A stretch of DNA of 60,954 nt from Hyphomonadaceae bacterium (GTDB taxonomy: Bacteria > Pseudomonadota > Alphaproteobacteria > Caulobacterales > Hyphomonadaceae): the NCBI GenBank assembly GCA_030697555.1, contig JAUYPV010000117.1:1-60954 (forward strand), read 5' to 3'. Both the position numbers and the translations under genes were made by a program. Shown in pieces: positions 9,984 through 44,156 of the stretch (positions within the stretch are counted from its first letter, which is position 1; each line of letters starts with the position of its first letter). The notes beneath the pieces were generated by a model that was not told the DNA's origin, did no database searches, and saw only the letters and a program-made list of their open reading frames with translations.

Positions 9984-9997
9984 TTGCGCTAGCGCAA
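9984..9997. promoter_or_regulatory. FixK-type box upstream of beta-CASP gene
   Basis: TTGCGCTAGCGCAA is a perfect 14-bp palindrome and fits the TTG(A/C)-N6-(T/G)CAA consensus known for FixK2. It lies 65 bases before the ATG at 9919. Confidence 0.6.
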
Positions 9998-10089
9998 TCA
10001 TGACCGACGTCACCGGCGCGACCGATTGATCGAGACTAGACGTAGCCAATACCGACGCCGCCGGCCGCCCGCCCCGGAGCTGGGCCACT

Positions 10090-10662
10090 TCAGGGTGTCG
10101 ACTCTGCGGTCGCAGGCCCAATCGCCGCAAACTGCGATGCGGCAGAGGGAATATCCGGACGGTACATTGCGTGGCACGATTGGCAGGCGATCGCGATGCG
10201 GTTCGCGGCCGCGAGCAAACCCGCCCTGTCCTTGCGAACTGTGGCGGCGCCCGCGCTGATGCTGGCCAGCTGCATCGCTTCGGCCCAACGACGGTAGTCA
10301 GGATCGGCTACCCATTCCGCATCGTGCGGGCCTGTTCCCGGAAGAGTGATAAGCGTCGCCGATCCGATCAGGTTTATCGACGCCAGCCCGGCGGCCAGCC
10401 AGTCGTCCTCCGTCAACGGCATTTCGGAGATCGCGCTGGTGAAGACGCCGTGCGCCGAGAACTCGACCACACCCGCCATCACGCCCTTGATCGGAACGCG
10501 GAGGGGCAGGGGTTGTGGCGTATCGAGCAAAGCGATCTGCCGGATATCCGCCAGCGGAACGGCTTCTGCGTCCCTCGGCAAACGTTTGCCCTGATAGACC
10601 ACACAACCGGCGCAAGCTGCGGCGGCCAGCAGTCCAGCGGCCATGAATGACAAACGGACCAT
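10090..10662 (-). CDS. Exported protein with C-terminal CxxCH (cytochrome c'-like), copy 1
   Basis: A 190-residue exported protein starting at ATG 10662 (GGAG eight bases upstream) with a hydrophobic N terminus 'VRLSFMAAGLLAAAACAGC', possibly a lipoprotein signal. The only haem motif, 'CQSCHAMYRP', lies near residue 165, as in class II cytochromes c', and the rest is alpha-helical. It shares with the proteins at 14395-14880 and 38329-38841 the pattern of a 'PLPLRVPIKGVMAGVVEFSA' segment, an 'LASINLIGSATLITLPGTG' segment, a tryptophan-rich stretch and the C-terminal CxxCH. Predicted periplasmic haem protein, maybe binding NO or carrying electrons. Boxes at 10718 and 10776 lie upstream. Confidence 0.75.
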   Translation of the reverse strand: MVRLSFMAAGLLAAAACAGCVVYQGKRLPRDAEAVPLADIRQIALLDTPQPLPLRVPIKGVMAGVVEFSAHGVFTSAISEMPLTEDDWLAAGLASINLIGSATLITLPGTGPHDAEWVADPDYRRWAEAMQLASISAGAATVRKDRAGLLAAANRIAIACQSCHAMYRPDIPSAASQFAAIGPATAESTP

Positions 10663-10717
10663 CAAGCGACTCCGCCATCTTGAAGATCTGATCTTGCCTG
10701 CGATTGGCTCGCGAGGA

Positions 10718-10731
10718 CTGACCGGGATCAA
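10718..10731. promoter_or_regulatory. FixK-type box, one mismatch
   Basis: CTGACCGGGATCAA differs from TTGA-N6-TCAA at the first base. It lies 56 bases before the leftward start at 10662. Confidence 0.5.
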
Positions 10732-41554: not shown

Positions 41555-41570
41555 CGGCCTTGAGGGGCAG

Positions 41571-44093
41571 ATGGACGCCGATCGCCTGCGTGGCTTGACC
41601 GAGGAAGAGGCTGCGCGGCGACTGAAGACGGTCGGGCCGAACGAGGCGCCTCGGGGTCGGCAGAGGCGTCTGCTCGACATTGTCGTCGAGACCATGCGGG
41701 AGCCGATGTTCCTGCTGCTGATCGGCGCAGCGCTTCTCTACATGTTCCTTGGCGACCTCGGAGAAGGGCTGTTCCTGTTCGCCGGCGCGACGGCGGCGAT
41801 CGGGCTTGTTATCTTTCAGGAGTCCCGAAGCGAGCGCGCTCTCGCATCGCTCCGTGACCTCGCGCAACCCTTTGCCAGAGTCATCCGCGATGGCGTCGAC
41901 ACGAAGATTCCCGCACGGGAACTCGTTCCTGGCGATCTTCTTCTGGTCGGCGAAGGCGAGCGGCTCCAGGCGGATGGCGCTCTCGTCGCGGGTGACGTGC
42001 TCAGCGTCGATGAGTCGATGTTGACGGGCGAATCCGCTCCCGTTGCGAAGCACCCGGCCAGTGGCGATCCGCCGCCCGATGTTGTTCCGGGCAATGACGC
42101 CGGGCCGCACGTCTTTGCCGGTACGATGGTGGTGGCGGGACAGGGCGTCGTTCGCATTGCACGCACGGGCGCATCTTCGGCGCTTGGCAAGATCAGCACC
42201 GCGCTGGCGGCGATCGGCCATGAGCCGACGCCGTTGCAGAAGACGACTGGCCGCGTCGTCACCCTGATTGGTTTCGTCGCGCTCGTGTTCTGTGGGTTGG
42301 TCGCGGTTTCCTACGGCCTGTTACGCGGGGACTGGGTCGGAGGATTGCTGGCCGGCATCACGATCGCGATCGCGCTTGTCCCCGAAGAATTTCCGATGGT
42401 GCTCGCTATCTTTCTCGCGCTTGGCGCCTGGAGGCTGGCGACGCACAAGGTGCTGGTCCGCCGCAGCGCCGTTGTCGAGACCCTCGGTGGAACGACTGTT
42501 CTTTGCGTCGACAAGACTGGAACGCTTACCAAGAACAGGATGAAAGTTGCGCGGCTCTGGGCGCCTTCCGCCGACATCGAAATTAATGGCGAAACATCCC
42601 TTCCGGATGCGGGACGGAAGATTCTAGCGCTCGCCTGCCTCGCGTCGTCGGTGCGGCCGGTCGATCCGATGGACCGCGCCCTGCGAGCGCTGTCAGACGG
42701 GCTCGGCGAGACGAGCGCAACTGCTGCGCAGGAACCGGACCGCGTCTGGCCGCTCCGGCCGGAGCGTCTCGCCGTGGTTCAGCTTTGGACACAGCCCACC
42801 GGCCGCCGGATCGCTGCCGCCAAGGGTGCGCCCGAGGCGATATTCGCACTCTGCCGGCTGCCGGCAGGCGAGCGCGATCGCCTGCATCAGGTGATCCTGT
42901 CCTATGCCGAGCAGGGCCTGAGGGTTTTGGGCATCGCGTCTGCACCGGCCGAACGCCCCTTCGACGAGCCCCGCGACCTGGCGTTCGAATTTGCTGGGCT
43001 GGTTGGCTTCATCGACCCCCTCCGTCAGGACGTGCCGCAGGCGCTGCGCGAGGCAAGAGGCGCAGGCATCAAGGTCGCGATGATAACCGGCGACCATCCG
43101 GCGACCGCGCTCGCCATCGCCAGACTGGCCGGTATCGACGTCACGGCCGGCGTCCTAACAGGCGCCGAGGTCGCGCAGCTCTCCTTCACCGATCTGTGCG
43201 CGCGTCTGAAACGCGTTCGGATATTCGCCCGAATCGCGCCTGAACAAAAGCTTCGCATCGTGGAGGCGTTCAAGGCGGATGGCGAGATCGTCGCCATGAC
43301 CGGCGACGGCGTGAACGACGCCCCGGCGCTCGAAGCAGCTCACATCGGCATCGCGATGGGAAAGAAAGGCACAGACGTGGCGCGCGAGGCGGCCGATCTC
43401 GTCCTGCAGGACGACAGCTTTGCCTCGATCGTCGGCGGCGTTCGCATGGGGCGGCGCATCTTCGGCAACCTTCGCCGCGCCATGATCTTCATTACCGCCA
43501 TCCATGTTCCGATTGCGGGGATGGCGCTGATTCCAATCCTGATGGGCCTGCCGCAGCTGCTTTTTCCGATGCACGTCGTTCTGCTGGAACTCGTTATCGA
43601 TCCGCTATGCGCGCTTGTCTTCGAAATCGAGCCAAGCGACAGGAATGCCATGCAGCGTCCACCGCGCCGGCGCGACGAATCTCTCTTCGGACTGAGACAG
43701 ATCATGATCGCCCTGGTCCAGGGCATGGGCGTTCTGGCCGGGGTGCTCGGCGTCTACTGGTGGGCCAGTATCGCGACGGGAGAAACCGAGGCGCGCGCGA
43801 CTGCCTTTGTAGCGCTGGTGACGGGCGTCCTTGTCCTCGCGCTGGCCGACTCGGCAGTGTCCAACCGTATATTTGCGCCGCACCGGCGTATCTTCTGGCT
43901 GATCGTGCTCGCGGTCGCCGTCGTCCTTGCCCTGGTGCTGTTCGTTCCAGCCCTGACCGCGGTGTTCAGCTTCTCAACCCCCGAACCGCGACTGTTGATT
44001 CTGGCGGTCGCCGTCGGCCTGGTCAGCGGAGGGTGGACGGTGCTCGGCCGACTCCATCGTCCGAAAAGGCCGGCGTCTTTGGTCGCCCCTTGA
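41571..44093 (+). CDS. P2-type cation-transporting ATPase
   Basis: An 840-residue P-type ATPase of the calcium/magnesium-pump shape. Motifs: 'VDESMLTGESAPVAKH' (A domain), phosphorylation site 'VDKTGTLTKNRMKVARL', 'KVAMITGDHPATALAIA', 'MTGDGVNDAPALEAAHIG', with four helices before and about six after. The membrane ion motif reads 'ALVPEEFPMVL' in place of VPEGLP, typical of an uncharacterised subgroup. Ion unknown. In operon with the USP at 40706 and thus probably in the low-oxygen regulon. Confidence 0.93.
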   Translation: MDADRLRGLTEEEAARRLKTVGPNEAPRGRQRRLLDIVVETMREPMFLLLIGAALLYMFLGDLGEGLFLFAGATAAIGLVIFQESRSERALASLRDLAQPFARVIRDGVDTKIPARELVPGDLLLVGEGERLQADGALVAGDVLSVDESMLTGESAPVAKHPASGDPPPDVVPGNDAGPHVFAGTMVVAGQGVVRIARTGASSALGKISTALAAIGHEPTPLQKTTGRVVTLIGFVALVFCGLVAVSYGLLRGDWVGGLLAGITIAIALVPEEFPMVLAIFLALGAWRLATHKVLVRRSAVVETLGGTTVLCVDKTGTLTKNRMKVARLWAPSADIEINGETSLPDAGRKILALACLASSVRPVDPMDRALRALSDGLGETSATAAQEPDRVWPLRPERLAVVQLWTQPTGRRIAAAKGAPEAIFALCRLPAGERDRLHQVILSYAEQGLRVLGIASAPAERPFDEPRDLAFEFAGLVGFIDPLRQDVPQALREARGAGIKVAMITGDHPATALAIARLAGIDVTAGVLTGAEVAQLSFTDLCARLKRVRIFARIAPEQKLRIVEAFKADGEIVAMTGDGVNDAPALEAAHIGIAMGKKGTDVAREAADLVLQDDSFASIVGGVRMGRRIFGNLRRAMIFITAIHVPIAGMALIPILMGLPQLLFPMHVVLLELVIDPLCALVFEIEPSDRNAMQRPPRRRDESLFGLRQIMIALVQGMGVLAGVLGVYWWASIATGETEARATAFVALVTGVLVLALADSAVSNRIFAPHRRIFWLIVLAVAVVLALVLFVPALTAVFSFSTPEPRLLILAVAVGLVSGGWTVLGRLHRPKRPASLVAP

Positions 44094-44142
44094 TCCAGCC
44101 ATGCCCGGCACGCGCTGCTGCCGAGGAGCGAATGTTTCGGAT

Positions 44143-44156
44143 TTGAGCCAGCGCAA
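44143..44156. promoter_or_regulatory. FixK-type box upstream of small lipoprotein gene
   Basis: TTGAGCCAGCGCAA fits TTG(A/C)-N6-(T/G)CAA, 72 bases before the ATG at 44229. It is the last such site going right. Confidence 0.5.

Follow-up and report, generated by a model that had tools for sequence, protein, structure and literature searches.

The contig JAUYPV010000117.1 of a free-living Hyphomonadaceae bacterium (assembly GCA_030697555.1), 60,954 nucleotides long and here called the window, carries a 34.4-kb island of oxidase, cytochrome and stress genes with FixK/FNR-type boxes in front of many of them; the flanks make up the other 26.6 kb. An earlier note, made from the sequence alone, had read these boxes as one compact regulon around a FixK-like regulator. 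It overlooked the level above FixK, which the same island encodes: a hybrid FixL-type kinase (hFixL), an FxkR-like response regulator and a repeat before fixK that resembles the K-box bound by FxkR. Gene identities come from Pfam and NCBIfam profile searches, and boxes were scored over the 10 informative positions of TTGAYnnnnRTCAA (the strict score, given as n/10). The features are as follows.

8327–9919, minus strand: beta-CASP metallo-beta-lactamase (MBL)-fold RNase-like protein, box 9984 upstream
9984–9997: FixK-type box, weak variant TTGCGCTAGCGCAA, 64 bp before the MBL gene
10718–10731: FixK box of uspA, distal
10776–10789: FixK box of uspA, 10/10, 48 bp before the start
10838–12567, plus strand: universal stress protein (Usp) and two baeRF/Host_attach proteins
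12658–13305, minus strand: BON-domain protein with three BON stretches; OsmY-like match below cutoff
13356–13369: FixK-type box, 50 bp before the BON gene
13503–13516: FixK box, 10/10, before a small open reading frame (ORF) at 13567
14395–14880, minus strand: cytochrome c'-like protein (weak Pfam match below cutoff; start curated)
14930–14943: FixK box, 9/10, 49 bp before the cytochrome gene
15004–15017: FixK box, 10/10, distal
15488–16342, minus strand: diacylglycerol-kinase-like protein (start curated)
16391–16404: FixK box, 10/10, perfect palindrome TTGATCGCGATCAA, 48 bp before the start
16478–17245, minus strand: short-chain dehydrogenase (SDR; start curated)
17299–17312: FixK box, 9/10
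17340–19997, minus strand: acyl-CoA synthetase (ATP-grasp, CoA-binding) with a GNAT domain
20057–20070: FixK box, 9/10
20505–20518: FixK box, 9/10, before the DUF3775 gene, which precedes fixK
20590–21020, plus strand: DUF3775 protein (start curated)
21187–21224, plus strand: tandem direct repeat resembling the K-box; its pairs stand at −102 and −80 relative to the fixK start
21289–21990, plus strand: FixK-type CRP/FNR regulator
22170–22183: FixK box of uspB, 9/10
22211–22224: FixK box of uspB, 9/10, only 14 bp from the start
22239–23108, plus strand: universal stress protein (uspB)
23835–25944, minus strand: flavodoxin-fold oxidoreductase and HemN
26129–26142: FixK box between the divergent hemN and fixN units
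26225–33894, plus strand: cbb3 oxidase genes fixN, fixO and fixP and maturation genes fixG, fixH and fixI
34146–34895, plus strand: FxkR-like OmpR-type response regulator
34905–36554, minus strand: hFixL, with FixL-type PAS, HisKA, HATPase and receiver (start curated within an ORF reaching 36692)
36591–36604: FixK box between hfixL and the 36655 gene
36655–37065, plus strand: uncharacterised conserved protein
37840–38841, minus strand: c-type cytochrome and cytochrome c'-like protein (weak match; start curated)
38900–38913: FixK box, 9/10
38945–38958: FixK box, 10/10, distal
40643–40656: FixK box, 9/10, before uspC
40679–44093, plus strand: universal stress protein (uspC) and cation P-type ATPase
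44143–44156: FixK-type box, weak variant TTGAGCCAGCGCAA
44229–45459, plus strand: small ORF without assigned function and M23 peptidase

The island thus encodes three Usp proteins, two baeRF/Host_attach proteins, two cytochrome c'-like proteins (below cutoff) and other c-type cytochromes; several of its small ORFs had no match in Pfam or NCBIfam. The MBL protein also matched Cas14 at 335 of 800 bits, far below the cutoff, and we read it as a general beta-CASP protein.

The protein encoded at 34905 is a FixL-type hybrid kinase. Its PAS region (residues 98–219) matches the FixL PAS structure 1dp6 in PDB (E 1.5e-28), the best PDB matches of its kinase part are CckA-type structures, and Pfam places a C-terminal receiver behind the kinase domains. 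A conserved histidine and arginine of FixL have a role in haem binding. Both residues are kept in 12 of 12 kinase rows of our alignment, including hFixL9 of the Rhizobium leguminosarum 3841 plasmid pRL9.

Its neighbour at 34146 resembles FxkR rather than FixJ. This response regulator ends in an OmpR-type domain, and its sequence groups with rhizobial FxkR proteins in a way that is suggestive rather than firm: in a tree of 13 FxkR rows and 10 paralogues from its own genome, all 13, FxkR9 among them, lie on one side of a branch with support 91/89. Plasmid matches to this protein number at least 5000 records. Three of the 25 matches listed were inspected, and two of these, on Ensifer and Terrarubrum plasmids, have a FixK-type gene, an FxkR-like regulator and a FixL-type kinase side by side, a gene context that favours the assignment to FxkR. 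FixJ, which is NarL-type, was not found in the genome of the window (4.98 Mb, 176 contigs, 99.45% complete), where the best match reaches 37% and covers the receiver only. The query was an ORF of the Sinorhizobium meliloti plasmid pSymA assigned as FixJ by its neighbours; it found 51–58% matches in the control genomes G041, G049 and G125, failed in the control G037, and gave a 43% match in the relative G008. Control of fixK by FixLJ is not favoured, since no FixJ was found in this genome.

A conserved direct repeat occupies the position at which FxkR would act. The site bound by FxkR in R. etli and R. leguminosarum is GTTACA-N4-GTTACA, upstream of fixK (PMC4999443, PMC7888657). We aligned 12 fixK upstream regions, from the window and from 11 of the 12 relatives with an orthologue (58% or more; G007 was left out). 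Their conserved block holds two repeat pairs 21–22 bp apart in 11 of 12 cases (in G011 the second pair stands at 10 bp), and a best or joint-best pair starts between −86 and −109 in all 12. The reference pairs lie at −101 (pRL9 fixK9a), −103 (pRL9 fixK9b), −105 (Ensifer) and −104 (Terrarubrum). The window repeat is of GTCACA type as against the published GTTACA: architecture and position are the same and the letters have diverged. A motif seen by eye at the fxkR start (~34141) is not evident in the fxkR upstream regions of relatives and was dropped.

The most serious alternative concerns this step. Some other protein, such as a different OmpR-type regulator, could drive fixK, with hFixL and FxkR serving a different target. 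The window fxkR lies 13 kb from fixK, binding of the repeat by FxkR is a prediction from its sequence, and the repeat differs in its letters from the published K-box, all of which give this alternative some room. We nonetheless consider it unlikely, given that the repeat separates adjacent, divergently oriented fxkR and fixK genes in G002, G014 and G020, the arrangement of fxkR9 and fixK9b on pRL9, and that the position of the repeat agrees with the pRL9 K-boxes.

The regulator at 21289 is FixK-type, as the earlier note had proposed, pointing out its Glu-Ser-Arg helix. It consists of a cNMP-binding domain and a Crp-type helix-turn-helix whose recognition helix carries E--SR, and its best PDB match is FixK2 (4i2o, E 1.3e-23). 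Among 15 aligned FixK-type rows, the E--SR helix is present in 15 and the FNR cysteine cluster in none. FixK proteins have been defined by the absence of at least one of the four FNR iron-sulphur cysteines (PMC2908626), and in our alignment the 21289 protein falls within this definition. The start MCI, with Cys2, is common to 11 rows of this genus and G020 (Cys2 invariant in 11 of 11), and Cys2 might be a redox or metal site.

FixK is also the best candidate for the protein that reads the boxes. An oxygen-sensing FNR or FnrN could do so in its place, making the island an FNR regulon with FixK as one member; the boxes of FNR, FixK and DNR hardly differ, and cbb3, hemN, usp and fixG-type genes belong to the core FNR regulon (PMC2908626). 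The FixK query, however, found three other CRP/FNR-type matches in the 99.45% complete genome, none of which keeps E--SR, and the window FixK itself lacks the four-cysteine cluster. One caveat attaches to this search: the longest ORF of the match on contig C24 begins with a cysteine-rich stretch. A like stretch lies beside the C165 match in another frame, and we take it as probably upstream DNA and not protein. We judge FNR as box reader very unlikely, and the interpretation of the island as a FixK regulon gains support from the same three observations on cysteines, helix and paralogues.

The boxes themselves are concentrated in the island. All 18 sites of the earlier list are present, 13 as exact TTGM-N6-KCAA (the loose motif) and five with one mismatch (10718, 22170, 36591, 38900 and 40643). 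Across the window, the loose motif at one mismatch occurs 88 times against 69.65 expected, a count equalled or exceeded in 4 of 100 shuffles; alone it is weak evidence and a poor detector of boxes, and we therefore used the strict score. Strict sites of at least 9/10 number 18 in the island and 0 in the flanks, with 3.57 expected for the whole window under a first-order Markov model, and there are five 10/10 sites against 0.30 expected. At 8/10 the contrast disappears, with 25 sites in the island and 24 in the flanks (38.87 expected for the two together).

The strict list and the earlier list overlap without coinciding. The strict list adds 14930, a good box that had been overlooked, and the intragenic sites 21565 and 41279; it omits 9984, 13356 and 44143, the weakest listed sites, which are TTGC/GCAA variants with strict scores from 6/10 to 8/10. 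Further exact loose matches at 11369 and 26954, also intragenic, were additional to the earlier list. The scanned flanks hold unrelated genes, including a chromate block, and the earlier note had noticed no box in either. This holds for strict sites and fails for the loose motif, which has exact matches at 49576 (inside the superoxide dismutase, SOD, gene) and 52705. The block adjoins the island at 45505–49868 and, devoid of strict boxes, comprises chromate transporter, ChrB-like, GST, ornithine cyclodeaminase-like and SOD genes.

Box positions relative to genes are promoter-like. The 130 bp in front of curated starts contain all 18 listed sites and 16 of the 18 strict sites. Such DNA makes up 7.6% of the island (binomial P 1.8e-16 for the strict sites, an optimistic value because the start codons were curated with the boxes known, not blind). 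Nearly all boxes had been placed 46–72 bases before a start codon; measured from box end to start, 12 of 18 are. The other six are the distal second boxes 10718, 15004 and 38945, the very close boxes 22211 and 40643, and 26129 at 82 bp. Lying so close to the uspB start, box 22211 could repress. Among the 22 curated starts, those of five genes (fixK, fxkR, cytcB, cytcD and the M23 gene) have no listed box within 200 bp. Of these, cytcB and the M23 gene may be transcribed from the preceding unit.

Concentration in the island also stands out at genome scale. A genome-wide scan had been suggested as a check, and its outcome is divided: TTGM-N6-KCAA occurs 188 times against 214 for a reversed-pattern control, which is background level, yet the island alone has 16 exact matches, against 1.19 predicted from the density outside the window. 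That the cluster is a chance or compositional excess of a GC-rich region has next to no credibility and was rejected, as the slight enrichment of the loose one-mismatch motif is outweighed by this excess, by the contrast of strict sites between island and flanks and by their placement before starts.

Candidate sites also occur elsewhere in the genome, where TTGAYNNNNRTCAA has 12 matches (control 4), five of them in the island. We mapped ORFs around all seven outside sites and ran Pfam on the neighbours of six. One lies between a divergent GST-family gene and an uncharacterised gene (C21:4701), others before a cytochrome b561 gene (C80:15846), ~109 bp before a gene without a Pfam match (C126:19877) and before an ECF sigma gene (C148:134559). 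The site at C148:114857 sits at the overlap of two ORFs and could precede one of them, and those on C70 and at C95:39601 are not close before a start in the ORF map. A second candidate low-oxygen locus was noticed at C95:30000–45000, where a 9/10 site (C95:37428) lies ~96 bp before a 316-aa ORF; a cytochrome c'-like ORF adjoins, with the site behind it, and a kinase with two FixL-like PAS regions is ~2.3 kb away.

Relatives share the regulator and differ in how their boxes are arranged. Of the 15 genomes of the genus, counting that of the window, 12 encode a FixK orthologue, as does 1 of 22 genomes from other genera of the family, and boxes recur before some of the same genes. In G009, the fixK contig carries five of the seven strict sites of the genome. 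G014 has 20 such sites, of which 8 lie within 23 kb of another contig that has SDR, Usp, P-type ATPase, acyl-CoA synthetase and BON homologues; this box-rich stress module (C24:12000–39475 of that genome) stands apart from fixK, and the window island may therefore be two modules side by side. G004, which has no FixK orthologue, has four strict sites (control 4).

We consider it probable that the island is a microoxic-response regulon with its own hFixL–FxkR–FixK control circuit. At low oxygen, the haem-PAS hybrid kinase hFixL (34905–36554) would lose O2 and phosphorylate the OmpR-type FxkR (34146), which would bind the tandem direct repeat at 21187–21224 and switch fixK on. FixK would then bind TTGAY-N4-RTCAA boxes, mostly about 50–70 bp before start codons; it need not sense oxygen itself, because it lacks the FNR iron-sulphur ligands. 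Its predicted targets are the high-affinity cbb3 oxidase and its maturation genes, c-type cytochromes, the three universal stress proteins, the BON protein, the cation P-type ATPase, the acyl-CoA synthetase and others. The box between hfixL and the 36655 gene would provide feedback on the sensor, and an input to fixK could come from the box before the DUF3775 gene. Box enrichment and position, gene identities and conservation in relatives are the observed foundation of this circuit; from them we infer O2 binding, phosphotransfer, FxkR–DNA and FixK–DNA binding, and activation.

Several results weigh against this circuit or against its compactness. Dependence of the units on oxygen and on FixK is a prediction from sequence. 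The branch that groups FxkR has support below the starred threshold, and the third plasmid locus inspected, from R. etli Mim1, has a PAS kinase and hemN nearby and no FixK in the stretch inspected. The 21289 protein is only 27–34% identical to rhizobial FixK-type proteins and scores 115.6 bits against the cutoff of 300 for the NCBI Caulobacter FixK equivalog; we therefore do not call it one. Scanning the window for the published K-box gave 9 matches where 8.59 are expected, hence no enrichment, and we therefore relied on alignment and position. Under the strict published letters, the best match was reached by at most 24 of 500 shuffles in 8 of 12 upstream regions and more often in the other four, and both the looser repeat scoring and the genome pattern were devised after the sequences had been seen. 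That pattern, a consensus derived from the repeat and allowed up to two mismatches, gave 15 matches in the own genome against 18 for the control. Its one exact match and one of its two 1-mismatch matches are the two fixK repeats (the other is on C86); because the scan showed no overall excess, we lowered our confidence in the hFixL–FxkR–FixK circuit and raised it for control of fixK by another regulator. Strict sites are spread over many contigs in G008 (21 sites) and G013 (20 of 25 sites listed; one contig has five), and G010 still has 10 (control 5) with no FixK orthologue. Given the candidate sites elsewhere in the genome, the regulon is probably not confined to the island. The description as one compact regulon thus stands as far as the boxes are concentrated in the island and promoter-like in position, and gives way where further sites lie elsewhere or are dispersed in relatives.

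The hFixL–FxkR–FixK circuit is a known kind of cascade in a lineage that seems unreported for it in the literature searched, mostly papers outside subscription. Its closest likeness is the pRL9 system (PMC7888657), which has a hybrid FixL kinase, an OmpR-type FxkR, FixK without Fe-S cysteines, a direct-repeat box ~100 bp before fixK, and boxes at the cbb3 and maturation genes (there anaeroboxes before fixNOQP and fixGHIS). Boxes are densely clustered there too, with 10 strict boxes in 18 kb against 1.8 expected. The window differs in its lineage, in its GTCACA-type, doubled repeat pair and in having more stress genes clustered together; the N-terminal part of hFixL is longer in the rhizobial rows, although start calls are uncertain. 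The Caulobacterales FixLJ–FixK system (PMC4999443) likewise has FixK without an Fe-S cluster, and its control of cco and hemN and its sensor feedback match what is predicted for the window, but FixJ was not found in the genome of the window and the response regulator here is OmpR-type. In the S. meliloti pSymA fix region, an unannotated record whose genes we assigned by BLAST to window proteins, strict boxes likewise lie among fixNOP, fixGHI, usp-like and flavodoxin-like genes. Box density is lower there (11 in 50 kb against 4.2 expected), and FixLJ drives fixK in S. meliloti, which also has an hFixL–FxkR system (PMC4999443). The core alphaproteobacterial FNR/FixK regulon (PMC2908626) shares with the island, behind the same box, genes for cbb3, oxygen-independent coproporphyrinogen oxidase, FixG-type proteins, P-type ATPase and UspA. 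That regulon is described across genomes and the island is one locus, which adds cytochrome c'-like, BON, baeRF and acyl-CoA synthetase genes.

The cascade may reach beyond the family in which it was described. Among 50 alphaproteobacterial genomes surveyed earlier, R. etli, R. leguminosarum and S. meliloti were the sole carriers of FxkR orthologues reported; that study placed the origin of the cascade in the Rhizobiaceae ancestor, found FixLJ in its four Caulobacterales and does not mention Hyphomonas (PMC4999443). NCBI now places Hyphomonadaceae in Hyphomonadales. The Hyphomonadaceae-like genus of the window seems to use hFixL–FxkR without FixJ, and the Terrarubrum plasmid has the same triad; for this reason the cascade appears either broader than Rhizobiaceae or to have moved, and it would not be tied to nodules. 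With sensor, relay, switch and many candidate targets in one ~34-kb locus, the island is a handy test bed for how oxygen regulons are assembled.

The box-linked gene at 36655 belongs to an uncharacterised family of ~125 amino acids. The protein had no Pfam or NCBIfam match and no convincing PDB match, and a single-sequence structure prediction was unusable (mean pLDDT 37). A box precedes the gene in all six relatives inspected where the gene was found. More widely, homologues occur in 62 of the 337 genomes of the class that were searched (own included), and we examined 20 of these 62 loci, mostly the better matches. A strict box lies within 200 bp upstream in 8 of the 20, against ~0.2 expected at the window Markov rate; in four more, as read from maps, the homologue follows a usp gene with a strict box in front. 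Across Alphaproteobacteria, the family thus often stands behind FixK/FNR-type boxes or in usp operons. A far-reaching proposal would make it a dedicated, widespread partner of the FixK/FNR response that modulates an oxygen-signalling kinase or stress targets, with a feedback loop through the FixK box shared with hfixL, in a movable hFixL–FxkR–FixK island that has spread beyond Rhizobiaceae; we hold this to be distinctly improbable. The association of the family with boxes makes it a concrete new gene to study.

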